Source: Marinihelvus fidelis
GTDB taxonomy: Bacteria > Pseudomonadota > Gammaproteobacteria > Xanthomonadales > SZUA-36
Assembly: GCF_008725655.1 (NCBI RefSeq)
Contig: NZ_VYXP01000005.1
Location: forward strand, 62,001 to 126,000
Direction: 5' to 3'
Length of the DNA: 64,000 nt
Shown here: in pieces, positions 35,110-60,358 of the stretch
Layout: each line of letters begins with the position of its first letter
Position numbering within the stretch: position 1 is the first letter of the stretch
Translations under genes and position numbers: made by a program
The notes under the pieces: generated by a model
The model's database searches: none
What the model saw: only the letters and a program-made list of their open reading frames with translations
Told to the model about the DNA's origin: nothing

Positions 35110-36207
<1,098 letters not shown>

Positions 36208-36348
36208 GCCGGAATGGTACAACAAGCCGGCGCACCATCACGCAGCCACGCCTTCCAGCTCGCCCCGCCGCTTTAGACGCGATTTAGACTGCCAACCAAT
36301 CAGCACGTAAATCAACTATTTGCGCCCCCGGGCGTACTGGAAATTAGT

Positions 36349-36511: not shown

Positions 36512-38743
36512 ATGGCACTCCTGGAGGAGTTAAAGCGCAGGAACGTATTCCGCGTGGGCATCGCCTACGCGGTCGGTGCATGGCTGTTGCTCCAGTTCAC
36601 CGAAGTCCTGTCCGAACTGCTCGATCTCCCGCCTGAAATCGGCCCCATCGTCGTCACCCTGGTGGCCATCGGCTTCCCAATTGCACTGTTCTTCGCCTGG
36701 GCCTTCGAGTTGACGCCGGAGGGCATCAAGCGCGAATCGGAAGTGACGCGGGAAACCTCGATCACCCGCCAGACCGGCCGCAAGCTGGACCGCGCCATCA
36801 TCGGCATGCTGGTCCTGGTTGCCGCCTACTTCATCTGGGAATCCCGGTTCGCAGAGCGTTCGGAACCGCAATCAATACCCGTTGCCGACGAAGGTGCGCC
36901 AACGGCACCCGACACACCGCCGCCTGCGGGCGCCAGCGCGGCACCGGCCACCCAGCCCAATTCCATCGCGGTGCTGCCGTTCGATAACCGCAGCCGCGTC
37001 GCAGACGACGAGTTCTTCGTCGACGGCATCCACGATGACCTGCTGACCAACCTGGCGCGCATCGGTGGCCTCAAGGTCATTTCACGAACATCCGTGGCGG
37101 GTTACCGCGGTACCGCAAAGCGTATTCCGGAAATTGCCAGGGAACTGGGGGTCGCCACGGTGATGGAGGGCGCCGTTCAGCGTTCCGGCGACACGGTTCG
37201 CATCAACGTGCAGCTGATCGACGCGGCCACGGATGAGCACCTGTGGGCGGAAATCTTCGACCGCCAGCTGACTGCTGACAACCTGTTCGCCATACAGACC
37301 GAGATCTCCGAGCGTATCGCCGGGGCGTTACAGGCCGAGCTCTCTCCGGCAGAGACCCAGCGCCTGGAAACCCGCCCGACTAACGACCTGGCGGCCTACA
37401 ACGCCTATCTTCGGGGCCGCCAGCTGATGCGTAGCCGGCGCTCGGATGACCTGGCGGCGGCGCTTGAAGAGTTTCGCCGCGCGACAACGCTCGACCCGGA
37501 ATTCGCACTCGCGTGGGTGGGCGTGGCGGATTCGGCGAACCTGTCCAAGTCATACGGCACCCTGGCGTTTACTGAAGCCGTGGACATCCAGAAAGATGCC
37601 TCCGCCCGGGCGCTCAACCTTGACCCAGAGCTGGGCGAAGCCCACTTGGCTAGGGCCTCACTGCTTGAAGACATAGGTGAGGACCCACAAGCCGATTATG
37701 AGCGCGCAATAGAACTGAGCCCCGGCTATGCCACGGCCTACCACTGGTACGCCATCTGGCTGGACGACCACACTGAACGGATACCCGAGGCCACCCGGAT
37801 GCTGGAACGGGCCCTGGAGCTCGACCCTCTATCCTCCATCATTCGGCGGGCCTACGCCGGCACACTCACCCAGGCCGGACGGTACGAAGACGCGCAGCGA
37901 CAGCTTGATGAGTTGCTCACCATGGACCCGGAATTCGTGCCGGCCATTGGTGGACAGGCTCTACTCCAGGGCATCGCCGGTGACATCGACGAACGCATCC
38001 TGACGTTGCGCCGCATCATTGAGCTCGACCCGAACAATCTCGGCATGTATCTCGGACTACTGTGGTCGTATATCGATATTGGCCAGTACGAAGCCATTGC
38101 AGACCTGAGGGCACAGATGGTCGAAATCGACGAGGACAGCCTCAACGTGGCCTGGCTCGACGCCATTCGCACCATGGGCAACGGCAACCCGGCCGGTGCG
38201 CTGGAGCAGATCAAGTGGATTGGCAGCCAGATGGGTGAACCGCCATTCATCAGGCAGATCGAGGCCATGCTGCACGCCCAGCAGGGAGATCCACAAGCCA
38301 CCCGCGCCGCATTTGATGCCTACAGCAGCGATTACTTCAGCCGCGAGACATGGCGTGGGCCGATCACCCGAAATCCACAGGACGCATGCATCGCGGGCTG
38401 GTCGATGCTGCATACCGGCGACACGGCGCTCGGCCAGGAACTGATCGAGGCGACCATCACGTTTGTCGAAGACGAGTTGCCGGAATACGTTGACCATGCA
38501 GCCAATTGGGGTATCGAATGGTGCTACGTCATCCGTGGCGACCTCGATTCGGCGTTGCAGGTGGTCGAGACACGGTTCCGGCATGGGCATTTTCAATTCT
38601 GGCACATGTACCACCGATTTCCGTTAATGGCGCCGCTGGTCCGCGAACCCCGGTTCGCGGAACTTGACCGCCGGGTCGAAGCCATTTTGACCGATCAACG
38701 TGAGCACCTCGCCCAAATTGACGCCGAGGATGCCGGTCCGTGA
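36512..38743 (+). CDS. TolB/FlgO-like TPR membrane protein, array member 1 of 10
   Basis: Length 743 residues. Helices at about 13-33, 44-64 and 94-110. The loop between helices 2 and 3 is strongly basic (KRESEVTRETSITRQTGRK), which puts it in the cytoplasm and the C-terminal 630 residues in the periplasm. A Pro/Ala linker (115-149) leads to the TolB-like domain at 150-290, of the type marked by DGIHDDLLT, ISRTSV and DEHLWAE. TPR-like helical pairs fill about 300-700 (LDPEFALAWVGVAD, LDPNNLGMYLGLL). The ATG at 36512 is chosen as it opens the conserved MALLEELKRRN tip. It shares subtype with members 2 and 4. Molecular role unknown; no enzymatic motif is seen. Confidence 0.85.
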   Translation: MALLEELKRRNVFRVGIAYAVGAWLLLQFTEVLSELLDLPPEIGPIVVTLVAIGFPIALFFAWAFELTPEGIKRESEVTRETSITRQTGRKLDRAIIGMLVLVAAYFIWESRFAERSEPQSIPVADEGAPTAPDTPPPAGASAAPATQPNSIAVLPFDNRSRVADDEFFVDGIHDDLLTNLARIGGLKVISRTSVAGYRGTAKRIPEIARELGVATVMEGAVQRSGDTVRINVQLIDAATDEHLWAEIFDRQLTADNLFAIQTEISERIAGALQAELSPAETQRLETRPTNDLAAYNAYLRGRQLMRSRRSDDLAAALEEFRRATTLDPEFALAWVGVADSANLSKSYGTLAFTEAVDIQKDASARALNLDPELGEAHLARASLLEDIGEDPQADYERAIELSPGYATAYHWYAIWLDDHTERIPEATRMLERALELDPLSSIIRRAYAGTLTQAGRYEDAQRQLDELLTMDPEFVPAIGGQALLQGIAGDIDERILTLRRIIELDPNNLGMYLGLLWSYIDIGQYEAIADLRAQMVEIDEDSLNVAWLDAIRTMGNGNPAGALEQIKWIGSQMGEPPFIRQIEAMLHAQQGDPQATRAAFDAYSSDYFSRETWRGPITRNPQDACIAGWSMLHTGDTALGQELIEATITFVEDELPEYVDHAANWGIEWCYVIRGDLDSALQVVETRFRHGHFQFWHMYHRFPLMAPLVREPRFAELDRRVEAILTDQREHLAQIDAEDAGP

Positions 38744-40818
38744 GCCTGGTCGCTGAACTCAAACGCCGCAACGTCTTCAAGGTCGCCATCGCCTATGCCG
38801 TCACGGCCTGGGTGCTGCTGCAGGCCACCGAGGTGGTCTCCGACATTCTTGAGTTGCCGGCCTGGGCGCCGAAACTGATCCTGCTGATCCTGGTGGTCGG
38901 GTTCGTGCCCGCACTGATCATCGCCTGGGCCTTCGAGCTGACGCCGGATGGCGTCAAGCTGGAAAGCGAAGTCGACCGGTCGCAATCGGTGACCCGCAAA
39001 ACCGGCCGTAAACTCGACTTCATCATCATGGCCCTGCTGGGACTGTCACTGGCCTACTTCATCTGGGAATCCCGCTTTAAGCAGGCGGCTGATATGGAGG
39101 TCGCCAACCCCACCCCCGTGACACAAGGCACGCCGGCGGAACCGGCGGAACCGGTTCGCCAGGTGCCAACGGAACGGGCAGAAGCCAACCGCAACTCCAT
39201 CGCCGTGCTGCCGTTCGCCAATCGCAGCGCTGAAGCCGCCGATGCCTATTTCACCGATGGCATTCATGACGACCTGCTCACCCAGCTGTCCAAGATCGGC
39301 GAGTTCAGCGTCATCTCTCGCACGTCGGTCATGGAATACCGCGACACCACCAAGAACCTGCGGGACATCGCCGGCGAACTGGATGTCGCCCACATCATGG
39401 AAGGCGCCGTGCAACGCGCCGGCAACCGGGTTCGTATCAATGTCCAGTTAATTGACGCGACCACCGACGAACACCTGTGGGCGGAAATCTACGACCGCGA
39501 ACTGACCACCGACAACCTGTTCGACATCCAGTCCGAGATTGCCATCGCCATTGCCGGCGCACTGAGCGCGACGCTGACCGACCGCGAACTCGCCGCCATG
39601 TCGGAGGCACCGACTGCAAACGTGGCAGCCTACGAACTCTACTTGCAGGCACGGCAACTGGGTTTCGAGCAGGACCAGCTCAGCAACCAGACGGCGCTGG
39701 AACTGGCGCACGAGGCGCTGCGGCTCGACCCGGAGTTCAAACTGGCCTGGGTGACCCTGGCCGAAGCGCAGCTGACCCGGTACTGGTGGTACTCCGGTGG
39801 CGACCCTGAAATGCGAGGCATGGCCCGGGAGTCCATCAACAGGGCGCGCGCCCTCGACGATGACTTTCCGGAGTTGTTCATGGCCGAAGGACTCTACTGG
39901 TACTGGGGCCACCTGGATTACGAACGCGCCATTTACAACTTCGGCCAGGCGATTGAGCGCGCGCCCAACGACGCCGCCGCTTACTACCGTCTAGCCTGGG
40001 CATCGCGTCGGGGCGACCAGTGGGAACAAACGGTCGACGCCTATCGCCAGGGCTTGCGCCTGGACCCGCGGATCGCCCATTACTGGGGCGACTACGGCCT
40101 GACGCTGACACTGCTCCACCGCTATGACGAGGCAATGGCCGCCCACGCCAGGGCGCGCGCACTGGAGCCGGACAGCCATCTCCTGCGAGCGCTCGAGGCA
40201 TTGACGGTTTTGCAAGCCACCGGGAACACTGAAGCGGCGATTGGCCTGTCAACCGGCGCCCAGCACACCACCGAATGGGACAACATCGACACCTATATTG
40301 CCGTACGACTGGCCGCCGACCGTTTTGAAGAGGCGTTGGCGACCATCCAGAAAATGGATGCACGGATGGAAGTGCAGCGCCAACTGATCGCGCTACGAGA
40401 AGACCAGGCCGCTCAGGTTTACCACTTCATGGGTGATTTCGAAGCGTCCAGCGCCGCAGCCGACGCGGCCTGGTTTCGACTGCAAGGCCTGCGCGAAACG
40501 CTGGGCGAGGATTACCGGATACTGCTGGCGGAAGCCCGTGTTTCGGCCTTGCGGGGTGAAGTCGGCGAGCCATTACAACGCCGGGTGACCGGCGCATTGG
40601 ACGCACAACCCCCGGACGGCGTTGAAAGCAAACGCGTCGCCCTGGAAGCGGCCCGGATCTATGCCATGGCGGACATGGGTGATGATGCGGTCAGTCTGCT
40701 CGAGCCCCTGTTTCAGCCACCCAGCCTGGTGTCGGTTCACACCGTCGGCACGGACCCGGCCTTCGATGGCATCCGTGAATCGCCGGCGTTCATCGCGATG
40801 ATGGAGCGGGTCCAATGA
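38740..40818 (+). CDS. TolB/FlgO-like TPR membrane protein, array member 2 of 10
   Basis: Length 692 residues; GTG start overlapping the stop of member 1 (GTGA). Helix 1 carries ATEVVSDILELP, similar to member 1, and helix 3 ends AYFIWESRF as in member 1. The TolB-like domain starts at about residue 152 (NSIAVLPFANRS) and has DGIHDDLLT and ISRTSVMEYRDT. TPR units visible: YERAIYNFGQAIERAPNDA, AYRQGLRLDPRIAHYWG and AHARARALEPDSHLLRAL. The C-terminus ends in the recurring D-P-x-F type block (GTDPAFDGIRESPAF). Confidence 0.85.
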   Translation: MSLVAELKRRNVFKVAIAYAVTAWVLLQATEVVSDILELPAWAPKLILLILVVGFVPALIIAWAFELTPDGVKLESEVDRSQSVTRKTGRKLDFIIMALLGLSLAYFIWESRFKQAADMEVANPTPVTQGTPAEPAEPVRQVPTERAEANRNSIAVLPFANRSAEAADAYFTDGIHDDLLTQLSKIGEFSVISRTSVMEYRDTTKNLRDIAGELDVAHIMEGAVQRAGNRVRINVQLIDATTDEHLWAEIYDRELTTDNLFDIQSEIAIAIAGALSATLTDRELAAMSEAPTANVAAYELYLQARQLGFEQDQLSNQTALELAHEALRLDPEFKLAWVTLAEAQLTRYWWYSGGDPEMRGMARESINRARALDDDFPELFMAEGLYWYWGHLDYERAIYNFGQAIERAPNDAAAYYRLAWASRRGDQWEQTVDAYRQGLRLDPRIAHYWGDYGLTLTLLHRYDEAMAAHARARALEPDSHLLRALEALTVLQATGNTEAAIGLSTGAQHTTEWDNIDTYIAVRLAADRFEEALATIQKMDARMEVQRQLIALREDQAAQVYHFMGDFEASSAAADAAWFRLQGLRETLGEDYRILLAEARVSALRGEVGEPLQRRVTGALDAQPPDGVESKRVALEAARIYAMADMGDDAVSLLEPLFQPPSLVSVHTVGTDPAFDGIRESPAFIAMMERVQ

Positions 40819-42620
40819 GCCTGCTCGGCAAGATGAAAGACCGCAACGTGTTCCGCGTGGGCATGGTCTATATCGTCGCTGCCTGGGTGCTGGTCCAGAT
40901 GATGGACATCATCCTTGACGACATGGCGGCGCCGGACTGGATCCTGCAGTTCGTCGTGTTCCTGTGTTTCGCCGGGTTCCCGCTCGCGCTGTGGCTGGCG
41001 TGGACGTTCGCGCTGACGCCGGACGGTCTGCGGATGGAAAAACACGTGGATCGGCGGCAATGGGCTGAGCAACCCGCGACGAGCAAACTGGACTACGTGA
41101 TCGTTGCGCTGCTGGCCGCGGTCATTGGCCTGGTGGCACTGGAGCGGTTCATGCCGAAAGCCGTGCCGACGCCCGCCGCGGTCGTCGTCGATACACCTGC
41201 ACCTGTCTCCGAAGCCGAGCCAGTCGAGATACTGGACAACTCGATCGCGGTGCTGCCGTTCGACAACCTCAGCGATGACGCGAGCCAGGGCTACTTCTCC
41301 GACGGCCTGGCCGATGAAATCCTCAATGCACTGGTCAAGGTGGACGGCCTGGCGGTTGCCTCCAGAACGTCATCTTTCGCACTCAAGGGGGATACCCGCA
41401 GCATCCAGCAGATCGCGCGGGCCCTGCGCGTGGCTAACGTACTCGAAGGCAGCGTCCGCAAGGTCGGCGACCGGTTGCGCGTGACCGCGCAGCTGATTGA
41501 CGCCGAAACCGACGTGCACCTGTGGTCGGACAGCTACGACCGCGACTTGACCGATATTTTCCAGGTACAGGAAGAAATCGCCAATGCCATCGTCGCCGCG
41601 CTGACGGTGGAGTTGGGCCAGGAACTGCAGTCAGTCAGCATTGCCCGGGGCACCGCCAGCATCGACGCCTATGACCTGTACCTTCGCGGCCGGGAACTGT
41701 TCATCGTCCGCGAAAACCTGCCGCAGAGCTGGGAGCTGCTGCAGCAGGTGACGCACCTTGACCCTGAATTCGCCCGCGCCTGGGAAACGCTGGCCGCGGT
41801 GCACTCCGTGGCCACCTCGTGGTTCCCCGGCGACGGCATTGACCACGAGTCGCTGGCGCTCGCGGCCGCGCGCCGCGCACTGGAACTGGACCCCGGGCTG
41901 TCGATGCCGCACGCCGTCATCGGCATGAAACATGAGGTGACCGGCGCCGGCTACGCGGGCGCGATCGCCAGCCTGGACACGGCCATCGCCAACGACCCGA
42001 ACAACGCCACCGCCTTTCTCTGGCGCGGCATTACCCTGAAAGACATGGGCTACGCGCAGCGCGCCCTGGCCGATTTTGACGCCTGCCTGGCCGTCGACCC
42101 GGCCTACCTGAACTGCCAGCAGTACCGCGCCAGCACCCTGATGACGCTGGGCCGGGTGAGCGAAGGCGTGCAGCAGTTCGAGGCCACGCTGCCCTACAAC
42201 TTTCACTCCGAGTCGGACGTATTTGTCAGCTACTACGTGAAAACCAGACAACTGAACATGGCCTACCTGGTGGCCTCCCTGGCATTGCGCCTCCCCTACG
42301 CACCCATTCGCGACTGGATCGCCGTGATCGAGAATCCGGACGCCGACCATTCGGCCGGCCTGGCCCGCTTCGAGGATTGGGGTGCCGCCAACAACATCAC
42401 GGTCTGCGACATGGATACTCTGGCTGTCGATTTCGGCCAGGTGCAGTGCTACACGACCATCAAGACGGCCCGCATGATGTGGGAACCGGCGGCCATCGAG
42501 TTCCGCCGCTCGCCGGGCTTCACCGAATGGGTCGACACCCACTTGATCGATTTCTGGCGTGAGCAAGGCTTTCCGGAGCAGTGCCGCGAATCCGGCGATG
42601 GAGGTTATGCCTGTGACTGA
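40815..42620 (+). CDS. TolB/FlgO-like TPR membrane protein, array member 3 of 10 (divergent anchor)
   Basis: Length 601 residues, ATG overlapping the previous stop. Its anchor departs most from the others: KMKDRNVFRVGMVYI instead of ELKRRN, a cysteine within helix 2 (VVFLCFAGFPLAL), FALTPDG instead of FE-TPEG, and HVDRRQWAEQPATSKLD in place of the SIT-x-x-TGRKLD loop. The TolB-like domain (from about 141) belongs with member 5: FSDGLADEILNALVKVDGL. The TPR half is short (LDPGLSMPHAVIGMKHE, NDPNNATAFLWRGITLKD). The C-terminal region has several cysteines (VCDMDT, VQCYTT, EQCRES, YACD), unusual in this family. Confidence 0.85.
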   Translation: MSLLGKMKDRNVFRVGMVYIVAAWVLVQMMDIILDDMAAPDWILQFVVFLCFAGFPLALWLAWTFALTPDGLRMEKHVDRRQWAEQPATSKLDYVIVALLAAVIGLVALERFMPKAVPTPAAVVVDTPAPVSEAEPVEILDNSIAVLPFDNLSDDASQGYFSDGLADEILNALVKVDGLAVASRTSSFALKGDTRSIQQIARALRVANVLEGSVRKVGDRLRVTAQLIDAETDVHLWSDSYDRDLTDIFQVQEEIANAIVAALTVELGQELQSVSIARGTASIDAYDLYLRGRELFIVRENLPQSWELLQQVTHLDPEFARAWETLAAVHSVATSWFPGDGIDHESLALAAARRALELDPGLSMPHAVIGMKHEVTGAGYAGAIASLDTAIANDPNNATAFLWRGITLKDMGYAQRALADFDACLAVDPAYLNCQQYRASTLMTLGRVSEGVQQFEATLPYNFHSESDVFVSYYVKTRQLNMAYLVASLALRLPYAPIRDWIAVIENPDADHSAGLARFEDWGAANNITVCDMDTLAVDFGQVQCYTTIKTARMMWEPAAIEFRRSPGFTEWVDTHLIDFWREQGFPEQCRESGDGGYACD

Positions 42621-42635
42621 CCGGAGTACCCGGCC

Positions 42636-44738
42636 ATGAGCCTGTTTGTCGAGCTCAAACGCCGCAATGTTTTCAAGGTGAGCATCGCCTACGCGGTGGT
42701 GGCCTGGCTGGTCATGCAGGTGGCCGACGTGGTCTTCGACGCCATCGGCACGCCGCCGTGGGTGATGCAGACGCTGTTGGTGATCCTGGCCATCGGCCTG
42801 CTGTTCGCCATTTTCTTCGCCTGGGCCTTCGAGATCACCCCCGAGGGCCTGAAGCGCGAAAAGGATGTCGATCGCAGCCAGTCGATCACCGGCCGGACCG
42901 GCCGCAAGCTCGATTTCGCCATCATCGGGCTACTGGTCGTGGCGCTGGCGTACTTCATCTACGAGTCGCGTTTCATGGACCGCGCCGCAGAAGCGCCGAC
43001 CGGCGCCCAGGCAACGGACACCGCAACCACCGGGAGCGATCCTGTCGCCAGCGCGGCAACCGCCGAGCCGGCCATCGACGCCAGTTCAATCGCCGTGCTG
43101 CCCTTCGCCAACCGCAGCCAGCGCGAAGATGACCTGTTTTTCACCGACGGCATTCACGACGACCTGCTCACGCAACTGGCCAAGATCGGCGGCCTGAAAG
43201 TCATCTCGCGCACATCGGTGATGCAGTACAAGGACACGCAGAAGCCGATACCGGAAATCGCGCAGGAGCTTCGTGTCGGCACCATCCTGGAAGGCGGCGT
43301 GCAGCGCGCCGGCAACCGCATCCGCATCAACGCCCAGCTGATCGACGTGACCCACGACCAGCACCTGTGGGCCGAGACGTTTGACCGCGAGATGTCGGTG
43401 GAGAACATCTTCGAGATCCAGTCGGAAATCACCCGCCAGATCGTCGCGGCGGTGCGCGGCGAACTGACCGAGGAAGAGCAGCGCGACCTGGGGCAGCTGC
43501 CCACGGACAACATGGCCGCCTACGAGGCCTACCTGAAGGCGCAGGCGGCGCTGCACCGGCCGGACTACGTTGTCGATAACTACATCGAGGCCGGGCACTG
43601 GGCCCGGCAGGCCGTGGACCTGGATCCCCGCTTTGCCCAGGCCTGGGCCATCCTGGTGGAAACCAACGGCCAGTCCATCTGGATGGGCCAGGACAGCAGC
43701 CCGGCACGTTTCGAAGCCGCGCGCGAGGCGCTGGAGAACGCCGAGCGGCTGGGCCCGGGCCTGGCCGAAACCGTTGCCGCCCGGGCCGAATACCAGTACC
43801 GGGTTGAGCAGGATTTCCAGGCCGCCGCGCAGACCTATGCGCGCGCACTGGCCATGCGCCCGGGCGACGCGGAACTGCTGTTCCGGCTGGCGGTCGCCAA
43901 GCGCCGGACCCCCGACGTGGAAGGCGCCCTGGAGGCCATGCGCCGCGCCATCGAACTGGATCCCAACAATGCCCGAGTGCCCACCCTGCTGGTGGAAACC
44001 CTGGGCAACATGGCGCGGTTCGAGGAGGCCGAGCCAATGGCCAGGGACTTGATCTTCCGGGCGCCGGACGCCCAGGATGCCAGGGCCACCCTCGCGGCCA
44101 TCGAGATGTACAGCGGCCGGATCACCGAGGCGCGGGCAACGCTGGAACAGGTTTTGCCCAACGCCGGCGCCACTTACTACTTCGCACTGACAGAGCTGCC
44201 CTATTACGAGAACGACTTCGAAAAGGCCGTCGCGACCTGGAACTCGGCGCTGGTTCAACGCGCGGTGAACAGCCGCGGGTTCATGGGCCACGATTACGTT
44301 GGCCGGGCCTGGGCCTGGCGCCTGCTGGGCCAGCACGAAACGGCGGTCTCCGAGGCCCGAAAGGGCATCGACGTGCTGCGGGCGCTGGAACCCACCGGCA
44401 CCAACCACGACGCCTTCGAAATGACCACCCTGGCCGAACTCTACGCCCTGGCGGGCGATCACGAAGCGGCGCTCGCGGCATCCGCGCGAGCCGTGGCCCT
44501 GATGCCGAAAGAGCAGGATTTCCTGTATGGCAGCTTCATGGCCCAGGCGCGTGTCGGCACACTGGCCCTGGCCGGTAATCGCGAGCAGGCTCTGGCCGAA
44601 CTCGAGCAGGTACTCAACTCTCCCTACCGCCCTGACAACCGGGCGATCTGGAACGACCCCCGCTGGGACTTCATGAAAGACGACCCGCGTTTCCGCGCGC
44701 TGGTCGCGCCCGATGATGCAATGGATGTAAGCCTATGA
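42636..44738 (+). CDS. TolB/FlgO-like TPR membrane protein, array member 4 of 10
   Basis: Length 700 residues; the ATG follows a 15-base gap. The first two helices match member 5 (VVAWLVMQVADVVFDAIG identical in both), whereas the third helix (AYFIYESRF) and the TolB-like domain (from about 150: DGIHDDLLTQLAKIGGLKVISRTSV) match members 1 and 2. The gene therefore looks like a mosaic. The TPR region is long and regular (MRRAIELDPNNARVPTLLVE, AAQTYARALAMRPGDAELL). It ends DPRWDFMKDDPRFRALV. Confidence 0.87.
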   Translation: MSLFVELKRRNVFKVSIAYAVVAWLVMQVADVVFDAIGTPPWVMQTLLVILAIGLLFAIFFAWAFEITPEGLKREKDVDRSQSITGRTGRKLDFAIIGLLVVALAYFIYESRFMDRAAEAPTGAQATDTATTGSDPVASAATAEPAIDASSIAVLPFANRSQREDDLFFTDGIHDDLLTQLAKIGGLKVISRTSVMQYKDTQKPIPEIAQELRVGTILEGGVQRAGNRIRINAQLIDVTHDQHLWAETFDREMSVENIFEIQSEITRQIVAAVRGELTEEEQRDLGQLPTDNMAAYEAYLKAQAALHRPDYVVDNYIEAGHWARQAVDLDPRFAQAWAILVETNGQSIWMGQDSSPARFEAAREALENAERLGPGLAETVAARAEYQYRVEQDFQAAAQTYARALAMRPGDAELLFRLAVAKRRTPDVEGALEAMRRAIELDPNNARVPTLLVETLGNMARFEEAEPMARDLIFRAPDAQDARATLAAIEMYSGRITEARATLEQVLPNAGATYYFALTELPYYENDFEKAVATWNSALVQRAVNSRGFMGHDYVGRAWAWRLLGQHETAVSEARKGIDVLRALEPTGTNHDAFEMTTLAELYALAGDHEAALAASARAVALMPKEQDFLYGSFMAQARVGTLALAGNREQALAELEQVLNSPYRPDNRAIWNDPRWDFMKDDPRFRALVAPDDAMDVSL

Positions 44739-49152: not shown

Positions 49153-49165
49153 CCGGAGCCCAGAC

Positions 49166-51421
49166 ATGAGCCTGTTCGCCGAACTCAAACGCCGCAACGT
49201 TTTCCGGGTGGGCATCGCCTACCTGATCGTGGCCTGGCTGGTTATCCAGGTGGCCGATGTCATGATCGACAACATCGGCGCGCCGGACTGGTTGTTCAGC
49301 GGCATCCTGCTGGTGCTGGCGATCGGGTTTGCGCTCGCACTGGTGTTCGCATGGGCTTTTGAACTGACGCCGGAAGGCATCAAGCGCGAACACCAGGTGG
49401 ATCGCTCGCAGTCGATCACACCGCAGACCGGGCAGAAGCTGAATTTCCTGATTATCGGTGGGCTGTCACTGGCCGTGGTCTACCTGCTGGTGGACAAGCT
49501 GGTGCTGCAGGACCGAGCTGACGCCCCGGCACAGGCGGTCGAATCCACGGCGCCGGCCAATGACGCAGCCAGCACCGACGTAACCGAGGTGCCCGACAAG
49601 CCGTCCGTCGCCGTGCTGCCCTTCGTTAACATGTCGGACGACAAGGCGAATGAATATTTCTCCGACGGCCTGACCGAGACGCTGCTGCACATGCTGGCAC
49701 AGCTGCCCGACCTGCAGGTGCCGGCCAGGACCTCGTCGTTCGCTTTCAAGGGCCAGAACACCAGCGTCAGCGAGATCGCCGCGGTGCTGGGCGTTGCACA
49801 TATCCTGGAGGGCAGCGTGCAGCGCGCCGGTGACCGGGTGCGCGTCACGGCCCAGTTGATTCGCGCCGAGGACGGCTACCACGTCTGGTCGCAAAGCTAC
49901 ACGCGGCCGCTGGACGATATCTTTGCCATCCAGGACGAAATCGCCACTGACGTGGCCCGCTCCCTGGACGCCTCGCTGCTGGGCAGCGACGAAATGCTGC
50001 ACGGGGTCGAAACGCAAAACACCGCGGCGTACGACATCTACCTTCAGGCGCTGGAACAGCAGGCACTGGGCACCTACGCCAGCCTGCCCCTGGCCGAATC
50101 GCTGTTCAAGAAGGCCCTGGCCCAGGACCCGGATTTCATCGACGCCAAGCTGGGGCTGGTGAGGAACTACCTGGGCAAGGCATTCACCGGGCTGATCGAT
50201 ACCGACCAGGCCTGGCTGCTCTCAGAACCCTTGCTGGGGCAGGTCCTGGTGGCGCAACCCAACCACCCTGTCGCGCAACTGATGGAAAACAGCTTTACGC
50301 TCTTGCCGGATAACAGCAACTCGAGCCCCGACGACTTTGTCGGAGCGCTCAACCGTATTCGTGACCTGTTGCCACTGGCGCCAACGGAAAGCCGGCTTCG
50401 TGCCAACACGGCGATGATGGCCCACTTTTTTATCAGCGACGATCGCACACCGCTGGCCCTGCTGGATGCAGGACTCAGGATCGACCCGCTGGAGCCAGAG
50501 CTCCTGAATGCCAAGGGTTTCGTCCTGCGCGAACAGCGGCGTTTTGAAGAAGCCGACCTCTGGTTCATGAAGGCTTACGAACAGGCGCCTGACGATCCCA
50601 ACATCCGAGGAAACATCGCCCAGCTCAAGGCCGATACCGGCGACATCAAGGGTGAACTGGAGTGGCTGCGCCTGGCCAGCGAATCCGACCCGCACGACCA
50701 CGAACTGGCGGCCATGCTGGCGTCACGGTTCTATGACCTGGACATGGCAGAGGAAGGCGACCGTTGGACCAACCGCGTCCTTTCGCTGGCGCCGCGATCG
50801 CCGATGGGCCGCAAGGTCGAACTCGAACGGGCCAGGGCGCACGGTGACGACGCTCTCGCACTCACGCTGGCCCGGTCAATGCTCGAAGATGACATCGATT
50901 TTCGCCACGGCTCCTTTTCCAGCGCCGTGTTCGGTTACGTGGAACTGATGACCGATGCCGGAAAAGCGCGTGAAGGGTTCGATGAACTCAGCGCACTTCG
51001 CCCCGGGGCAATGGCCTTTGATGGCCAACCGGGCAGCCTGACCGACGGGCTTGTCATCATGGCGGCGCTGGAGTGGTTGCCGCTGATTTTCGAACCCGAA
51101 GACGTCAACCGCATGTGGCAGAACGCCCGTGTTTCGCTTGACCATGCGCTTCCACGCTGGGTTGAGAATCCGATCGCCAAGCTGTGGATTGCCCGGTACG
51201 AGGAAGATCCGCAGTCAGCGCAGTCTGTCGTCCTCGATGAGCTGATCCCACGCCCGCCCGGCAGGAACCTCGGCCTGCCTGACCTGCTCGCTCGTCCGGT
51301 CATGCAGCCCGTGTTCGAAGATCCGGAAGTGCAGGCCGCCCTGGCACAGCTGGAGCGGGAGGCCGATGCGTTGCGCGGCGAAGTCCGCGAAATGCTGCTG
51401 CAACCGGAATGGAACCCATGA
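49166..51421 (+). CDS. TolB/FlgO-like TPR membrane protein, array member 7 of 10
   Basis: Length 751 residues. The ATG at 49166 follows a 13-base gap; in-frame codons upstream belong to the 3' end of member 6. Anchor type QVADVMIDNIGAPDW with FELTPEGIKRE, like members 4 and 5, but everything after SITPQTGQKLN resembles member 6 (VDKLVLQDRADAPAQ, FSDGLTETLLHMLAQLPDLQV, ending EVREMLLQPEWNP). This is a second mosaic case. TPR-like units are less regular (LDAGLRIDPLEPELLNAKGF, WFMKAYEQAPDDPNIRGNI). Confidence 0.87.
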   Translation: MSLFAELKRRNVFRVGIAYLIVAWLVIQVADVMIDNIGAPDWLFSGILLVLAIGFALALVFAWAFELTPEGIKREHQVDRSQSITPQTGQKLNFLIIGGLSLAVVYLLVDKLVLQDRADAPAQAVESTAPANDAASTDVTEVPDKPSVAVLPFVNMSDDKANEYFSDGLTETLLHMLAQLPDLQVPARTSSFAFKGQNTSVSEIAAVLGVAHILEGSVQRAGDRVRVTAQLIRAEDGYHVWSQSYTRPLDDIFAIQDEIATDVARSLDASLLGSDEMLHGVETQNTAAYDIYLQALEQQALGTYASLPLAESLFKKALAQDPDFIDAKLGLVRNYLGKAFTGLIDTDQAWLLSEPLLGQVLVAQPNHPVAQLMENSFTLLPDNSNSSPDDFVGALNRIRDLLPLAPTESRLRANTAMMAHFFISDDRTPLALLDAGLRIDPLEPELLNAKGFVLREQRRFEEADLWFMKAYEQAPDDPNIRGNIAQLKADTGDIKGELEWLRLASESDPHDHELAAMLASRFYDLDMAEEGDRWTNRVLSLAPRSPMGRKVELERARAHGDDALALTLARSMLEDDIDFRHGSFSSAVFGYVELMTDAGKAREGFDELSALRPGAMAFDGQPGSLTDGLVIMAALEWLPLIFEPEDVNRMWQNARVSLDHALPRWVENPIAKLWIARYEEDPQSAQSVVLDELIPRPPGRNLGLPDLLARPVMQPVFEDPEVQAALAQLEREADALRGEVREMLLQPEWNP

Positions 51422-51440
51422 CCGCCAACCGTGACCGGCG

Positions 51441-53237
51441 ATGAACTTTCTCGCCGAACTCAAGCGCCGTAACGTATTCCGCGCGGGTATCGCCTACGTA
51501 CTGATGGGATGGGTCCTGCTGCAGGGCGCCGACTTCGTTCTTGACCTGATCGGGGCACCTGAGTGGGTGATCCGGGCGCTCGCCGTGGTCATCGTGGTTG
51601 GCCTGCCGATTACGCTGTTTTTCGCCTGGGCGTTCGAAATGACGCCGGAAGGCCTGAAACGTGATCACGAGGTCGACCGGTCGCAGTCCATCACGCCGCA
51701 GACCGGCCGCAAACTGGACCGCGCCATTATCGCGTTCCTTGCCGTGGCGCTGTTGCTGGTGCTGGCTGAACGATTCTTCCTGGCGGAGCCCGCGCCCGTG
51801 CCCGAACAGGTGACAGAAGCCACGTCGGAGGAAGAAGCCGGGCCACCACCGGACACCGGCACGTCGCTGGCCGTCCTCGCCTTCGAGAACATGTCGCCAG
51901 ACCCCGAAAACGAGTTTTTCGCCGACGGCATTTCGGAGGAGATTCTCAACGTGCTTTCCGGTCTCGAGGACCTGCGGGTGATCGCGCGTACGTCGGCTTT
52001 TTCGTTCAAGGGTTCGGGCGCCACAGTCGCGGAGATTGCCGGCAAGCTGGACGTCAGCCACGTCCTGGAAGGCAGCGTGCGGCGGGCCGGCAATCGCGTA
52101 CGGGTCACCGCCCAGCTGATCGAAACGAACGGCGAATCACACCTCTGGTCCGAGACCTACGACCGCGATTTGGACGACATCTTCGCCGTGCAGGACGAGA
52201 TCGCCCGCGCCATTACCCGAGAATTGCAGCTGCAACTCACCCCCGAGCAGGAAAATCTTCTGGTGGCGCAGCCCACGGACAACCTGGAGGCCTATAACAA
52301 GTACCTGCAGGGCCGCCAGTTGTGGCACAGCCGCGGCCCACAGAACCTGCAGGCGGCCGCCATCCTGTTGCAGGACGCGGTCGAACTCGACCCGGGCTTC
52401 GCCGAGGCCTGGGCCGCGCTGGCCGATACCTGGTTGCTGATCCCGGAATATTCCCCGACCCGCACACTGGAGACCATCCCGCCTGCCCGTGACGCCGTCA
52501 ATCGGGCGCTGGAATTGAAACCCGGCATGCCCCAGGCCCTGACAACCCGGGCCTACATCCGGTTCATGTACGACTTCGACTGGGACAACGCGGCGCGGGA
52601 CTTCGAGCGGGCCATCGAACTCGATCCCGACTACCCCACGGCACAGCAGTGGTATGGCGAGTACCTGGCGGTCCGAAACCGGGATACCGACGCGGCCCTG
52701 GCGCAGTTTCGCAAGGCCGCCCAGATGGATCCTCTGGCGCCGGTGATGTGGAACGTGTCCGGGTGGGTCGCCGCGCAGGCGGGCAGACTGGAGGAGAGCA
52801 ACCGGTATTACGAGCGCACCCTCGAGATCGAACCCGGATTCCTGGCGACCTATGCCAACCTGACCCTTAACTATATCCAGCTGGGTGAATATGAACACGC
52901 CCGCGAGATGTGGGTGCGCGCAGCGGCCCTGGGTGAATTCGACACCGAAGACGGCTTCAATCTTATCGAAGCCATGCATGATCCCACGGCCAGGCAGGCC
53001 TACATCGAAGGCCTCGCGACCAACCCCAACTGGCGCAGCGGCGCGGTCGATCGTGCGTTCGTGTACATGCTGCTGGGCGAAGAGGAGCGGGCCATGGCGG
53101 ACCTTGAGCGCGGTCTCGAAGTGGGTGACCCCTACGCCGCGCACGCCAACCGCATGACGATCTACGACCCGCTTCGCGACGATCCGCGCTTCCAGGCGTA
53201 CCTGGCGAAAATGAACCTGTGGCCCCCAGAGGATTGA
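51441..53237 (+). CDS. TolB/FlgO-like TPR membrane protein, array member 8 of 10
   Basis: Length 598 residues, the shortest. The ATG follows a 19-base gap and the tip is MNFLAELKRRN. Anchor LLQGADFVLDLIGAPEWVI. The TolB-like domain (from about 141) is unusual in SLAVLAFENMSPDPENEFF, with Ala replacing the Pro of the V-L-P-F signature, followed by ADGISEEILNVLSGLEDLRV. TPR units are canonical (FERAIELDPDYPTAQQWYGE, QFRKAAQMDPLAPVMWNVSG, YYERTLEIEPGFLATYANL). It ends MTIYDPLRDDPRFQAYL. Confidence 0.86.
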   Translation: MNFLAELKRRNVFRAGIAYVLMGWVLLQGADFVLDLIGAPEWVIRALAVVIVVGLPITLFFAWAFEMTPEGLKRDHEVDRSQSITPQTGRKLDRAIIAFLAVALLLVLAERFFLAEPAPVPEQVTEATSEEEAGPPPDTGTSLAVLAFENMSPDPENEFFADGISEEILNVLSGLEDLRVIARTSAFSFKGSGATVAEIAGKLDVSHVLEGSVRRAGNRVRVTAQLIETNGESHLWSETYDRDLDDIFAVQDEIARAITRELQLQLTPEQENLLVAQPTDNLEAYNKYLQGRQLWHSRGPQNLQAAAILLQDAVELDPGFAEAWAALADTWLLIPEYSPTRTLETIPPARDAVNRALELKPGMPQALTTRAYIRFMYDFDWDNAARDFERAIELDPDYPTAQQWYGEYLAVRNRDTDAALAQFRKAAQMDPLAPVMWNVSGWVAAQAGRLEESNRYYERTLEIEPGFLATYANLTLNYIQLGEYEHAREMWVRAAALGEFDTEDGFNLIEAMHDPTARQAYIEGLATNPNWRSGAVDRAFVYMLLGEEERAMADLERGLEVGDPYAAHANRMTIYDPLRDDPRFQAYLAKMNLWPPED

Positions 53238-53238
53238 G

Positions 53239-55113
53239 GTGAGCCTGTTCAACGAGCTCAAGCGGCGCAATGTCATCCGTGTCGCCATCGCATACCTGCT
53301 ACTGGGCTGGGTCGTGCTGCAGGGCGCAGACTTCGCCCTCGACCTGATCGGCGCGCCGGACTGGGTGATTCGTGCGCTGGCAATTGTCGCCCTGGTCGGC
53401 CTGCCGTTCGCACTGGCCTTTTCCTGGGCCTTCGAAATGACGCCGGAGGGCATCAAGCGCGAAGCCGAGGTCAATCGCGATGAATCCATCGCGCCGGCGA
53501 CCGGCCAGAAGCTGAACGGCATGATCATCGCGCTGCTGGTACTGGCGGTGGCGCTGCTTTTGATCGACCGATACCGCGCACCACGGATTGAACAACCGAT
53601 CACTGGAAAACCCTCGGTATCGCCCGATAGTGTGTCGCCGGACATCTCGACCGACACGGCGGCACCGGGGAATTCGGTCGCGGTACTGCCATTCCGCGCC
53701 ATGTCCAGCGGCGAGGACGACGAGTATTTCGCCGACGGGCTGACCGAGGAGATCCTGAACTCGCTGGCCCAGGTGCCCGGCCTGTCGGTCACATCGCGTA
53801 CCTCGGCGTTTTACTTTAAGGACAAGGACCTGCCTATTCGGGATATTGCCGAGCGGCTCAACGTGAAACACGTGGTCGAGGGGTCCGTACGCCGCTCCGG
53901 GGATCGCCTCCGCGTCACAGCACAGCTCATTCGGGCCGACGACGACACCCACCTGTGGTCGAATACCTACGACCGCACGGACGCCGATGCCATCGCCGTG
54001 CAGGAAGACATCGCGCAACGAATCGCCGAAACCCTGAACGTATTTCTCGATGAGAATACGCTGGCGCAAATGCGCCGGGCGGGCATTCGCGACGTCCACG
54101 CTTTCATCGAGTACGCGCGCGGCGTGAAGATGCAGCACGCCGCGCACGGCAGCGATGCCCAACTGGAAGAGCTGGCGCAGGCCAACACGCACCTGGCCGC
54201 CGCGGTGGAAGCCGCGCCGGGTTTCGCCCGGGCCTGGCAGGATTACTCTGACTATTACACCCACGTACTGATCGACAGCGCCATTGGTGAGCTGTCACCG
54301 AAACCGACGGACGACGAACTGCAAGCTGCATACGCGGAGACGCAACGAGCCTTCCAGCAGGCCGCCCGCCACGCCACCAATCCCGGCGCACGCGCCGCTG
54401 CGGAACTGGATCTCGCCATCATCCGGGGCGAATCCGGCAACTGGCGACCGCTGCTCGAAACAGCGCTCGCCTCCGAGACCTGCATCGAGCTCATCTGGGC
54501 TCACCTGATCGCCTACCTGCCCGAATTTTCCGACCAGTTCGGCACGTTGCTCGAGCGCCTGATTCAGTGCGACCCGATGGCATCCGATAACTGGGGCGAA
54601 CTGGCTGACAATCTCATCAGCCAGGGACAGCCTGCGCGCGCACTCGAACGTCTCGATGCCGCATTCGTCGTCGGTGACGAATTTCTGAATCTGTCCCGGA
54701 TCAACGCTTTGGTGGCCCTGGGAGAGTTCGAAACCGCCGAATCGGTGGCCGCCATCGACCTGGCTAATGAGGGCAGTCGCTACAAGGCGCGGATGGAAAT
54801 CGCCGCGGCCCGGGGCGACCTTGAGGGCGTACTGGCCAGCGGCGACGCCCTGGCACGCGAGCAGCTCATGAACGAATACCTGGCCCTGTTGCAGGCCGCC
54901 TGGACCGGGGATCGCGACACCGCCAACGCGATCGCTGGGCGAATCGACGCGCAACCCCTGGGTCACATGGCCCTGATGGTCAGCATGCTCTGGTGCCAAT
55001 GCGGCGCTCCATTCGATCTGGACGCCGCACCCCGCTTCGCGGATATGTGGCGCCAAGCCGAGTTTCCCTGGCCACTGCCGGCCGCCATCGACTTTCCAAT
55101 GAAGGAGTGGTGA
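53239..55113 (+). CDS. TolB/FlgO-like TPR membrane protein, array member 9 of 10
   Basis: Length 624 residues; GTG start one base after the previous stop. Anchor LLGWVVLQGADFALDLIGAPDWVI; loop SIAPATGQKLN. TolB-like domain from about 145 (NSVAVLPFRAMSSGEDDEYF, ADGLTEEILNSLAQVPGLSV). The C-terminal half differs from members 1-8: TPR periodicity is weak and the protein ends with a block containing LWCQCGAPFDLDAAP and IDFPMKEW, shared only with member 10. Confidence 0.86.
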   Translation: MSLFNELKRRNVIRVAIAYLLLGWVVLQGADFALDLIGAPDWVIRALAIVALVGLPFALAFSWAFEMTPEGIKREAEVNRDESIAPATGQKLNGMIIALLVLAVALLLIDRYRAPRIEQPITGKPSVSPDSVSPDISTDTAAPGNSVAVLPFRAMSSGEDDEYFADGLTEEILNSLAQVPGLSVTSRTSAFYFKDKDLPIRDIAERLNVKHVVEGSVRRSGDRLRVTAQLIRADDDTHLWSNTYDRTDADAIAVQEDIAQRIAETLNVFLDENTLAQMRRAGIRDVHAFIEYARGVKMQHAAHGSDAQLEELAQANTHLAAAVEAAPGFARAWQDYSDYYTHVLIDSAIGELSPKPTDDELQAAYAETQRAFQQAARHATNPGARAAAELDLAIIRGESGNWRPLLETALASETCIELIWAHLIAYLPEFSDQFGTLLERLIQCDPMASDNWGELADNLISQGQPARALERLDAAFVVGDEFLNLSRINALVALGEFETAESVAAIDLANEGSRYKARMEIAAARGDLEGVLASGDALAREQLMNEYLALLQAAWTGDRDTANAIAGRIDAQPLGHMALMVSMLWCQCGAPFDLDAAPRFADMWRQAEFPWPLPAAIDFPMKEW

Positions 55114-55117
55114 CCGA

Positions 55118-57001
55118 ATGAGCTTTTTCGCCGAACTCAAGCGCCGCAACGTGTTTCGCGTGGGCATCGCCTACGTGCTGGTCGCGTGGATCGTGCTCCA
55201 GGGCATCGACTTTCTCGTCGACCTGATCGATGCGCCGGCCTGGGTGCTGCAGATTTTCTTTGCCGCCGCGGCGATCGGCCTTTTGTCGGTGCTGATTTTT
55301 TCCTGGGTCTTTGAAATGACCCCGGAAGGGTTGAAGAAGGAACGTGACATCGACCGGGACCGGTCCATCGCACCCCAGACCGGGCGCAAGCTTGATCGCG
55401 TCATCATCGCCTTTCTTGCCATCGCGGTGGTCGTGCTGCTGGTGGAGCGATTCAGTCAGCCCGCCAGAATCGACGAGCCGGTTGCAAGCGCCCGGTCGAC
55501 GTCACCAACCGCAGATTCTGCCGAAGCCCCGACAAACGCCCCGCCGAAGAAAAGCCTGGCCGTCCTGCCTTTCGTCGCGCTCAGCAACGGCCCGGATGAC
55601 GAGTTTTTCGCCGACGGCCTGACCGAGGAAATCCTCAACTCGCTGGCGCAACTGCCCGAGCTCCGGGTCACGGCGCGCACGTCCGCGTTCGCCTTCAAGG
55701 GGCAGGATCTGCCGGTCCAGGAGATCGGCGAAACGCTGGGCGTCGGCCATGTCGTCGAGGGCTCGGTGCGCCGCGCCGGCGAGCGGTTGCGGGTGACCGC
55801 GCAGCTGGTGCAGGCCGAAGACGGTTTCCACCTTTGGTCCAAAAACTACGACCGCGATTACGGCGACACCATCGCAATCCAGGAGGACATCGCCGAGCAG
55901 ATCGCCGCGGCGCTTGATGTGGTCATGGACGAGGGCAAGCGCGACTCCATGCGCCGGGTCGGACTGCGCGATCCCGCGGCCTTCATCGCCTGGCAGAAAG
56001 GCACACTCGCCGCACAGATCGCCCATGGCACCGTGGACCAGATTCCGGGCCTGCTGGAGGCCAACGCGCATTTTGAAGAAGTCCTCGAACATGCTCCCGA
56101 CTATGCGCCTGCCTGGGTCGCGCACAGTGACCCTTACGGACACATCCTCAATGACAGTGCAACCGGCGAAAGTTCGCTCGACGATGTACCTGAGTCGATG
56201 GTCAACACTGCGCTGCAGATGGCGGCCAATGACCTGGCAAAGGCGGCGGAACACGCCACCGGCCTGGATGAACGGGCTGGTGCCGAACTCGACCTGGCCA
56301 TTCTCACCGGTGATTTCTACGACATTCGCCGTCGCCTGGAAGCCTACCTGGCCAGCGAAGGTTGCGACCATGCCCAGTGGGTTGATCCGGTGGCGACGGT
56401 GTTTGGCTTCGCGGAACAGGTGATCGACCGGCTGGGTCATGTCACCGCCTGCGATCCGCTGTGGAGCACCGTGGTGTTTTCAAGGGCACGCGCCGCACTC
56501 TGGAACGGGCAGACGGAACGCGCACGGGACATCATTGCCATGGTCCGGGAACAGTCCTCCCACCCTTGGCTGGACCTGATCCAGGTCCGCTCCTACATCA
56601 TCGATGGACAACTCGAATCAGCCCGGGCCGAGATTGACCAGGCCCGCTCGATGGACCCGTTCTGGCGGAAACAAAATGCGCTGATGCTCGCGGCCGCCAG
56701 TGGGGACCGCGACAACATGACGCGACTCGTAGAGTTGGCCTACGAGGACGGGAGCAGGTCCGGCTTTTTCGACCTGCAATTCCACGCCATGAGCGGCGAC
56801 CGGGAGGCCGCCAACCGGGTTGCCGCCCGCATCGACCAGGACGCCTACGGTCCGCTGCCGCTGATCCTGATCATCAACTGGTGCATGTGTGGTGCGCCGT
56901 TTGACCTGGAGGCCACACCCAATTTGGCGGCCGAGATCGCAGAAGGCGGCTTGCCCTGGCCACCGGCGGAAATCATCAATTTTCCACTTAAACAATGGTA
57001 A
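55118..57001 (+). CDS. TolB/FlgO-like TPR membrane protein, array member 10 of 10
   Basis: Length 627 residues; ATG four bases after the previous stop. Anchor IVLQGIDFLVDLIDAPAWVL; TolB-like domain from about 147 (KSLAVLPFVALSNGPDDEFF, ADGLTEEILNSLAQLPELRV). It is the sister of member 9 over its whole length, including the insertion VGLRDPAAFIAW after the TolB-like domain and the C-terminal NWCMCGAPFDLEATP with INFPLKQW. The array stops here, followed by 150 bases before the next gene. Confidence 0.86.
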   Translation: MSFFAELKRRNVFRVGIAYVLVAWIVLQGIDFLVDLIDAPAWVLQIFFAAAAIGLLSVLIFSWVFEMTPEGLKKERDIDRDRSIAPQTGRKLDRVIIAFLAIAVVVLLVERFSQPARIDEPVASARSTSPTADSAEAPTNAPPKKSLAVLPFVALSNGPDDEFFADGLTEEILNSLAQLPELRVTARTSAFAFKGQDLPVQEIGETLGVGHVVEGSVRRAGERLRVTAQLVQAEDGFHLWSKNYDRDYGDTIAIQEDIAEQIAAALDVVMDEGKRDSMRRVGLRDPAAFIAWQKGTLAAQIAHGTVDQIPGLLEANAHFEEVLEHAPDYAPAWVAHSDPYGHILNDSATGESSLDDVPESMVNTALQMAANDLAKAAEHATGLDERAGAELDLAILTGDFYDIRRRLEAYLASEGCDHAQWVDPVATVFGFAEQVIDRLGHVTACDPLWSTVVFSRARAALWNGQTERARDIIAMVREQSSHPWLDLIQVRSYIIDGQLESARAEIDQARSMDPFWRKQNALMLAAASGDRDNMTRLVELAYEDGSRSGFFDLQFHAMSGDREAANRVAARIDQDAYGPLPLILIINWCMCGAPFDLEATPNLAAEIAEGGLPWPPAEIINFPLKQW

Positions 57002-57151: not shown

Positions 57152-57553
57152 ATGCATATTTACGACATCTACAGGCACCCAGATTACGGCTACCAGGCCG
57201 TACGCCGCGGTTTTTCGTGGCAGGCGTTCCTGTTGCCGTCGGTCTGGGCGGTACGACGTGGGCTGGGTTACATCACCCTGGTCCTGGTGATCGCCACTTC
57301 TCTCGCATTCGATATCGCCGAGTTGCTAGGCCAGTGGGCCGGACACCCGGTCAGCCAGGTGATGATCCTGGTGGCGCTGTCCGTGGTCGTCGGGCTGAAG
57401 CCTGGTTTCGATGGCTACCGTTGGCACGCCCGGGCGCTGAAGGACGACGATTTCAGGTTCCAGTGCTCCGTTGCGGCCAGCAGCCGACGGAAAGCCATTC
57501 GGGCGGCGGCCGGTGAACAGCCATTTGCCGGCGCGGTGAACGTCGCCGCCTGA
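57152..57553 (+). CDS. DUF2628 family small membrane protein
   Basis: 133 residues. The N-terminal block HPDYGYQAVRRGFSWQAFLLPSVWAVRRG is typical of DUF2628, followed by two hydrophobic segments (YITLVLVIATSLAFDI and VMILVALSVVVGL) and a basic C-terminal tail. Function of the family is not known. It may be read from its own promoter or by read-through from the array. Confidence 0.75.
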   Translation: MHIYDIYRHPDYGYQAVRRGFSWQAFLLPSVWAVRRGLGYITLVLVIATSLAFDIAELLGQWAGHPVSQVMILVALSVVVGLKPGFDGYRWHARALKDDDFRFQCSVAASSRRKAIRAAAGEQPFAGAVNVAA

Positions 57554-59243: not shown

Positions 59244-59303
59244 GGGCATTTCCTCATCGGGACGTTGGCATGTGCCGAACAGGTTATGCGCGCGCGACCA
59301 TGA

Positions 59304-59334
59304 TTGAAAAGATGAATCTTTGAATGACTATAAT
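59304..59334 (+). promoter_or_regulatory. Promoter of the LysR gene with operator-like inverted repeat
   Basis: TTGAAA (59304-59309) and a perfect TATAAT (59329-59334) are separated by 19 bases. The spacer contains AAAGAT-GA-ATCTTT (59308-59321), a perfect 6-bp inverted repeat. A regulator bound there would affect this promoter and could also control the divergent aceB. Confidence 0.6.
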
Positions 59335-59365
59335 GAGTTTTGTTAAAGCTAAGGCGCGAAACCCC

Positions 59366-60319: not shown

Positions 60320-60358
60320 CACGCTAAGATCTGGAAAACACCAACAAAAAGGGATGCC

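Follow-up and report, generated by a model that had tools for sequence, protein, structure and literature searches.

Organization of the array

The window analysed here is a stretch of 64,000 nucleotides from Marinihelvus fidelis (contig NZ_VYXP01000005.1), and all positions refer to it unless a locus is given. At 36512-57001 it contains ten successive open reading frames (ORFs), T1-T10, all on the forward strand and without any intervening gene, that encode paralogous proteins of 598-751 residues. The ten proteins have one common domain order and can be aligned from residue 1 onward: a module of three transmembrane (TM) helices, an alpha/beta domain with resemblance to TolB and FlgO, and a region of tetratricopeptide repeats (TPRs). 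Profiles of the membrane module and of the TolB-like domain, both built with T1-T10 themselves included, scored 170-230 bits on all ten members. The intergenic gaps are, in order, -4, -4, +15, -4, -4, +13, +19, +1 and +4 bases. The co-oriented row of ten paralogs with a shared domain order that was described in the first-pass annotation is thus confirmed by the ORFs, the alignment and the gaps, and the operon-like layout is borne out by the range of the gaps (-4 to +19). Genomes and loci used for comparison are given by G and L numbers.

36512..38743, + strand: T1, three-helix membrane module, alpha/beta (TolB/FlgO-like) domain and TPRs, 743 residues (ORF, alignment); G001 ortholog at L133:2667-4898
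38740..40818, + strand: T2, architecture as T1, 692 residues; clade with relatives in G001, G002, G006 and G024
40815..42620, + strand: T3, architecture as T1, 601 residues; clade with relatives in G001, G002, G006 and G024
42636..44738, + strand: T4, architecture as T1, 700 residues (ORF, alignment, tree)
44735..46906, + strand: T5, architecture as T1, 723 residues (ORF, alignment, tree)
46903..49152, + strand: T6, architecture as T1, 749 residues; first ~250 residues match the G001 gene that replaces T6 and T7
49166..51421, + strand: T7, architecture as T1, 751 residues; later part matches the G001 gene that replaces T6 and T7
51441..53237, + strand: T8, architecture as T1, 598 residues; AlphaFold2 model with pLDDT 91.9, modelled ectodomain of the CadC fold
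53239..55113, + strand: T9, architecture as T1, 624 residues; no Pfam TPR match in the C-terminal part
55118..57001, + strand: T10, architecture as T1, 627 residues; no Pfam TPR match in the C-terminal part

Longer alternative starts exist for T1 (at 36473) and T7 (at 49088), and the alignment fits the shorter ones. The earlier attribution of TPRs to every member holds for the eight in which Pfam TPRs were recognized, while T9 and T10 gave no Pfam match at E<=0.01. Since simple promoter and terminator scans of the array yielded sites no more frequently than in shuffled sequences, it is the spacing of the genes that suggests a single transcript.

A three-helix module with a predicted periplasmic ectodomain

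We obtained a predicted structure of T8 with AlphaFold2 (mean predicted local distance difference test score, pLDDT, 91.9). The N-terminal module of about 112 residues begins in this model with a short helix, continues with two long hydrophobic helices and an FE-TPEG hairpin, and ends with another long helix. Between the module and the alpha/beta domain, the ten proteins have a linker of 28-40 residues, and the TPR region comprises 311-460 residues.

51441..51776, + strand: T8 residues 1-112, membrane module with TM1 12-37, TM2 41-64, hairpin strands 65-68 and 71-74, and TM3 85-112 (helices of the model, putatively membrane-spanning)
51864..52301, + strand: T8 residues 142-287, alpha/beta (TolB/FlgO-like) domain (profiles, model)
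52302..53234, + strand: T8 residues 288-598, TPR region (Pfam, model)

The average number of lysine and arginine residues over 108 rows is 3.3 before TM1, 0.05 between TM1 and TM2, 3.0 between TM2 and TM3, and 0.6 after TM3. An N-in/C-out topology with the large part of the protein in the periplasm is predicted, and the charge pattern together with the three membrane helices of the T8 model agrees with the inner-membrane anchor and periplasmic exposure that had been proposed from a first inspection.

No curated Pfam family was found for the membrane module, which gave scattered weak matches among the 12 members scanned. DUF2207_C matched 8 of the 12 (best E 0.002), which may be a chance match to membrane helices. 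Copies of the module that stand alone, without an ectodomain, were identified in the genome of M. fidelis itself (L009:2983-3357, 124 residues) and between array members in G013 (L140:2218-2625, 135 residues). Because such copies exist, the module is likely to serve a function by itself.

The modelled ectodomain has the fold of the CadC sensor

CadC is the membrane-integrated pH regulator of E. coli and belongs to the ToxR-like family. In the model, the periplasmic part of T8 shows the fold of the CadC sensor ectodomain. The four CadC structures 3LY7, 3LY8, 3LY9 and 3LYA were the top four rows of a VIA-align comparison, which mainly covers residues 141-583 of the T8 model; T8 residues 133-462 were superposed with Z-scores of 21.8-22.4 and a root-mean-square deviation of 4.1-4.4 over 303-307 of 318-323 residues (11-12% identity), which is nearly the whole length of the CadC ectodomain. 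The rows that followed were other TPR-containing proteins at Z 20.2 and lower. Foldseek recovered CadC with E-values of 1.2e-7 to 5.7e-7 at ranks 9, 13, 14 and 23, with several TPR chains ranked higher. For the other nine members, the likeness to CadC follows from their alignment with T8. The periplasmic parts of eight of the ten members matched the NCBIfam CadC profile at E<=0.1, five of them at E<1e-4, with all scores under the family cut-off.

The resemblance to FlgO and TolB is weak and concerns the alpha/beta domain. All 12 single alpha/beta domains (the ten of the window and two others) matched the FlgO profile PF17680 at E<=0.1 (best E 1e-4), as compared to only one of the 12 for TolB_N (PF04052). 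Against a gathering score of 22.6 bits for FlgO, the single domain of T8 scored 15.2 bits and the full-length T5 and T7 scored 17.4 and 17.6 bits, with the other eight full-length proteins unlisted at E<=0.01. The TolB profile TIGR02800 was matched by four of the ten members over just the first ~150 of its 418 positions. Weak matches were also obtained to the NlpI profile in some members and to the LpoB profile in one. The peptide-modification cyclase profile TIGR04510 matched six of the ten over the TolB-like and TPR part. A PDB sequence search with the full alignment returned TPR proteins or TPR-like designs exclusively among the best 60 of 314 rows, and a search with the TolB-like domain alone returned just CcmE at E 0.005-0.006 and one row at chance level. 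The predicted structure of T8 contains an alpha/beta domain that is followed by helices. The label "TolB/FlgO-like plus TPR" stands as a weak family resemblance, but this part of T8 is better described as a CadC sensor fold.

The array members and CadC have in common an alpha/beta domain followed by TPR helices, in an ectodomain located C-terminally to the membrane part (Z ~22 for T8). Unlike CadC, the array members have no cytoplasmic winged helix-turn-helix (wHTH) domain and no cysteines in the alpha/beta domain; their helical-repeat part is longer, and ten paralogs are encoded in a row. The single TM helix typical of CadC/ToxR-like proteins is replaced by three hydrophobic helices, as seen in the T8 model and aligned in all ten. 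They also differ from FlgO, the cut-off of which is missed by the full-length members, in having an inner-membrane module at the N-terminus, and from TolB in that helices rather than a beta-propeller follow the alpha/beta domain of the T8 model. The TolB-like and TPR part is shared with TIGR04510 cyclases and with wHTH-TolB-TPR and kinase-TolB-TPR proteins, but these carry an output domain and the array members show none.

Constant and variable parts

Among T1-T10, the median pairwise identity (45 pairs for each part) is 53% for the membrane module, 48% for the alpha/beta domain and only 27% for the TPR region. The far greater divergence of the TPRs supports the earlier suggestion that the members display different TPR surfaces. 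Eight members have one-to-one orthologs in G001, to which the identity is 83-99% in the module, 86-100% in the alpha/beta domain, 46-96% in the TPR region and 30-66% in the linker. The ratio of nonsynonymous to synonymous substitution rates (dN/dS) against the nearest ORF in G001 is 0.12-0.37 for all ten whole genes (T6 and T7 included by their nearest ORF), and the array genes are under purifying selection.

The array site in related genomes

The array is flanked on the left by the genes for GSDH, UppP/BacA (uppP/bacA), GlnA (glnA), a DUF4124 protein, NtrB (ntrB) and NtrC (ntrC), and on the right by those for malate synthase, a LysR regulator, a GDSL-type esterase and HipA. The nearest genes on either side are:

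35110..36225, - strand: GSDH-like gene, divergent, in the conserved left flank
57603..59249, - strand: malate synthase gene, convergent, right flank; found in 14 of the 39 genomes of the family (E<=1e-100)

The array site is shared with relatives. On the left, family members lie by GSDH and/or uppP, in many cases together with glnA and ntrBC, in G001, G002, G003, G013, G014, G018 and the SZUA-36 genome; on the right, they lie by malate synthase and/or LysR in G001, G002, G003, G005, G018, G045 and G049. According to the gene maps, from which gain and loss of copies were read, the site between GSDH-uppP-glnA-ntrBC and malate synthase holds no member in G047, one in G003, three in G018, nine in G001, ten in the window and at least ten in G049, where the run reaches the contig end. 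The sites of G004 and G048 are interrupted by contig ends, and arrays are often cut in the many fragmented assemblies. Near the conserved site of G023, we observed a frame-broken remnant of an array member (L198:4749-5377).

A tree of 99 sequences, based on the module and the alpha/beta domain, groups T1-T5 and T8-T10 with a single G001 gene apiece, in unchanged order. The T2 and T3 clades take in sequences from G006 and G024, which belong to other genera, and the best matches in G006 run in the order T1-T2-T3. The sixth of the nine G001 genes resembles T6 as far as about residue 250 and T7 from there on, a sign of unequal crossing-over.

Two ectodomains on one chain, behind one membrane module, were found in G002, G013, G024, G045 and G049 (loci L153, L138, L154, L180 and L173). 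In all five, no further family member was seen downstream of the fused gene, and in three it directly adjoins a small gene that also lies downstream of T10 (see below). Neighbouring ectodomains are thus able to occupy the same compartment and form part of a single chain, and separate array proteins may associate as well. The fusions are compatible with the suggestion of the first-pass annotation that the array proteins might form a multi-subunit complex.

A first impression that the array evolves fast came from four flanking genes, three with a synonymous rate (dS) of ~0.2 and UppP with 0.67. A hypervariable locus was rejected, as the array does not exceed 60 flanking ORFs in dS (median of the ORFs 0.78; Mann-Whitney p 0.23), chosen mechanically with the genes of the low-dS tract included. 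The array had looked fast because the low-dS comparison genes sit in a recently exchanged tract, as which the low-dS stretch of the right flank is identified. The malate synthase, LysR and GDSL genes and two more have dS values of 0.14-0.24 relative to G001, from window positions 57603-62005 on to ~65.5 kb (L186). Comparably low dS values relative to G001 were obtained for parts of T1, T4 and T8.

Distribution of the membrane module

The membrane module was identified in all 39 genomes of the family, with 1-71 matches per genome (median 11) and at least ten in 24 genomes. Across the class, it was found in 8 of 274 sampled genomes, the source genome included, with at most 15 candidates scored per genome and with one of the eight (G146) represented by a 23-residue match alone. 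In G059, which belongs to another family, ten co-oriented members were observed in one run (L188), the last of them truncated where the contig ends. A rapidly built tree that carries no support values placed seven of these ten nearest to their run-mates and three nearest to the window's family (one of them a tie), which suggests that the G059 array is largely, perhaps not wholly, an expansion of its own.

Runs of at least five members recur both in the window's family and beyond. Among the best 80 named GTDB loci, taken as stretches of up to 10 kb on each side and in part apparently belonging to the G002, G006, G013 and G014 genomes, 22 had runs of two or more members and 8 had runs of five or more, including a Balneola record and a Verrucomicrobiota record (seven members including fragments, five of full length). 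The first-pass annotation had regarded such proteins as usually single; this applies widely, as 58 of the 80 loci have no run of two, but the window's family has runs of three to at least ten.

Outputs and partners

No output domain was recognized in T1-T10 in scans with Pfam and NCBIfam profiles, in agreement with the initial notice that none is visible, which the Pfam scans of the members and of the module bear out. None of the ten members matched PF00486 (Trans_reg_C) at E<=0.01, and their N-termini are occupied by the membrane module. Nor was a Trans_reg_C gene present among the ten array and ten flanking genes scanned; the LysR-type gene two places to the right of the array matches PF00126/PF03466. 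Elsewhere in the same genome, four proteins (L013, L014, L018 and L019) have the TolB-like/TPR part behind Trans_reg_C, and another (L016) has it behind a protein kinase. In one paralog with module and TolB-TPR part (L010:2974-5391), TM2 and TM3 are separated by a long insert that resembles a degenerate nucleotide cyclase by eye, a reading that Pfam did not confirm.

Over the 39 genomes, the number of modules follows that of TolB-like domains (Spearman rho 0.98) but not that of Trans_reg_C domains, response regulators included (rho 0.06, p 0.71). There are 68 modules and 6 Trans_reg_C domains in G024, and 34 modules and 5 Trans_reg_C domains in G014. Genes for extracytoplasmic function (ECF) sigma factors (PF07638) were observed beside a 3TM-TolB-TPR gene (L011) and beside the kinase-TolB-TPR gene in L016. 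An ECF sigma factor as a common partner was not supported: PF07638 matches are strong in some high-copy genomes (G006 and G023), but only weak in G024 (68 modules) and G051 (71 modules).

Possible functions of the array proteins

We tentatively favour, with a probability of roughly 0.4, the interpretation that the array is an operon for ten receptor-like proteins of the inner membrane that share a partner encoded outside the array; a scaffold function comes close behind. Each receptor would consist of the three-helix module with a short cytoplasmic FE-TPEG hairpin, a flexible linker and a periplasmic CadC-type ectodomain extended by further helical repeats. Each member would bind a different periplasmic ligand or protein through its TPR surface, the members would associate through the shared membrane and alpha/beta parts, and they would act on the common partner rather than regulate DNA individually. 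In the proteins known so far, a CadC-type ectodomain is the sensing half and an output is carried on the same chain. Here, the sensing half is multiplied on a module without a curated Pfam family, in up to 71 copies per genome, and the DNA-binding outputs are not multiplied with it. This raises the question of the role of such a large number of sensor-like proteins that lack an output.

Several observations weigh against the receptor interpretation. The structural likeness to CadC comes from a single model, that of T8, with a lead of about 2 Z units over the next TPR row. Because the alpha/beta domain has no cysteine in any of the ten members, the regulatory disulfide of CadC cannot form. The loop between TM2 and TM3 has more acidic than basic residues (4.8 versus 3.0 over the 108 rows), and the topology therefore leans mainly on the N-terminus and on the likeness to CadC. 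The divergence of the TPRs may stem from relaxed constraint (dN/dS 0.54 for the TPR part of T5) and not from diversification of ligands. Members at the site are dispensable, given that G047 has none and G003 one. No conserved neighbour was found, the commonest Pfam families being present in 4 of the 106 proteins scanned (105 neighbours hand-picked from 171, with mostly short or shadow-like ORFs left out, plus the small gene of the array). As to the disulfide, the cysteine pair of CadC is well conserved in Enterobacteriales (PMC3096576), and it may not define the wider CadC/ToxR-like family.

Alternatively, the proteins could be adaptors with a structural role, keeping envelope enzymes or assembly factors together in the periplasm, with one client per TPR surface and no signalling, which we consider only somewhat less likely. 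The periplasmic TPR proteins NlpI and LpoA act as scaffolds or adaptors in this manner, and the fused double ectodomains and the lack of a visible output domain suit such a function; the matches to the NlpI and LpoB profiles are weak. On the other hand, the CadC-type ectodomain is a sensory fold, the TolB-like/TPR part stands behind signalling outputs in the same genome, and a copy number of 1-71 together with a site that lacks members altogether would be unusual for a core assembly scaffold. Receptors would imply an unrecognized route for periplasmic signals across the membrane, and scaffolds a large, not yet described envelope assembly; both can be put to the test now that the module, its stand-alone copies and the sites with one or no member have been located.

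It is unlikely that the array is a neutral or weakly selected tandem amplification, in which unequal crossing-over makes and loses copies of a set without special function. The T6/T7 hybrid gene of G001, the variation from 0 to at least 10 copies at the site, the remnant in G023 and the 1-71 copies per genome are all of the kind expected from such a process, but the ten genes are all open and have low dN/dS values, and G006 and G024, which come from other genera, also have the T2 and T3 lineages in matching order, so that the copies are old and have been kept. Likewise unlikely is a receptor repertoire with a constant module and alpha/beta domain and a diversified TPR region, the copies of which would be recombined at a fixed site and form combinatorial, partly heteromeric complexes that signal through the module without a known output domain; the heteromeric assembly is proposed because the fused double ectodomains suggest heteromers.

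Output-less periplasmic partners of wHTH regulators do exist in the co-component systems ToxR/ToxS and VtrA/VtrC, which resemble the array in that membrane proteins with periplasmic domains and no output of their own are encoded by neighbouring or overlapping genes; in these systems, the gene of the partner lies next to that of the wHTH regulator, and VtrC resembles lipocalins (PMC9214523). It is nevertheless very improbable that every array member supplies the ligand-binding half of one such membrane regulator, in spite of the four Trans_reg_C proteins with a TolB-like/TPR part, since the array adjoins no Trans_reg_C gene and the unrelated counts of modules and Trans_reg_C domains disfavour one-to-one wHTH partners.

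The small eleventh gene and other genes around the array

57152..57553, + strand: small DUF2628-like gene, 133 residues, eleventh co-oriented gene (PF10947, E 0.0037, 18.1 bits, under the cut-off of 23)

This gene starts 150 bp downstream of the array. It was found beside array members in seven genomes (G000, G001, G006, G013, G024, G045 and G049), of which G006 and G013 have it on contigs without the malate synthase flank, and beside the array-member remnant in G023, where it is still open. The downstream array ends fetched for G002, G005 and G018 did not show it, and neither did the sites of G003 and G047. The gene is thus frequently linked to the array, but not obligatory.

When the neighbouring genes were clustered, the groups obtained were the flanks of the array site, the small gene and sets drawn from three to six loci each, among which several were shadow ORFs. 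The commonest families among the 106 proteins, mostly from L053-L132 and without a background control, were of the alpha/beta-hydrolase type, with DLH (4), Hydrolase_4 (4) and Peptidase_S9 (3), considering the 25 most frequent of 172 families. No array of this kind was named in the titles among the literature matches listed, which mostly leave out subscription journals. No tRNA gene was found in a search of the 64-kb window, and the G+C content of the array (0.615-0.653 in 2-kb steps) is similar to that of its surroundings. A HipA-like kinase gene lies to the right of the array at 62337-63638. Array members and flanking genes are not always direct neighbours. An extra gene adjoins GSDH in G013 and G018, and also at the array-less site of G047:

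L137:6479-9052: gene of ~860 residues beside GSDH
L164:13213-15828: gene of ~860 residues beside GSDH
L197:3642-6212: gene of ~860 residues beside GSDH

On the other side of the site, a gene of 423-437 residues adjoins malate synthase in G023, G045, G047 and G049.

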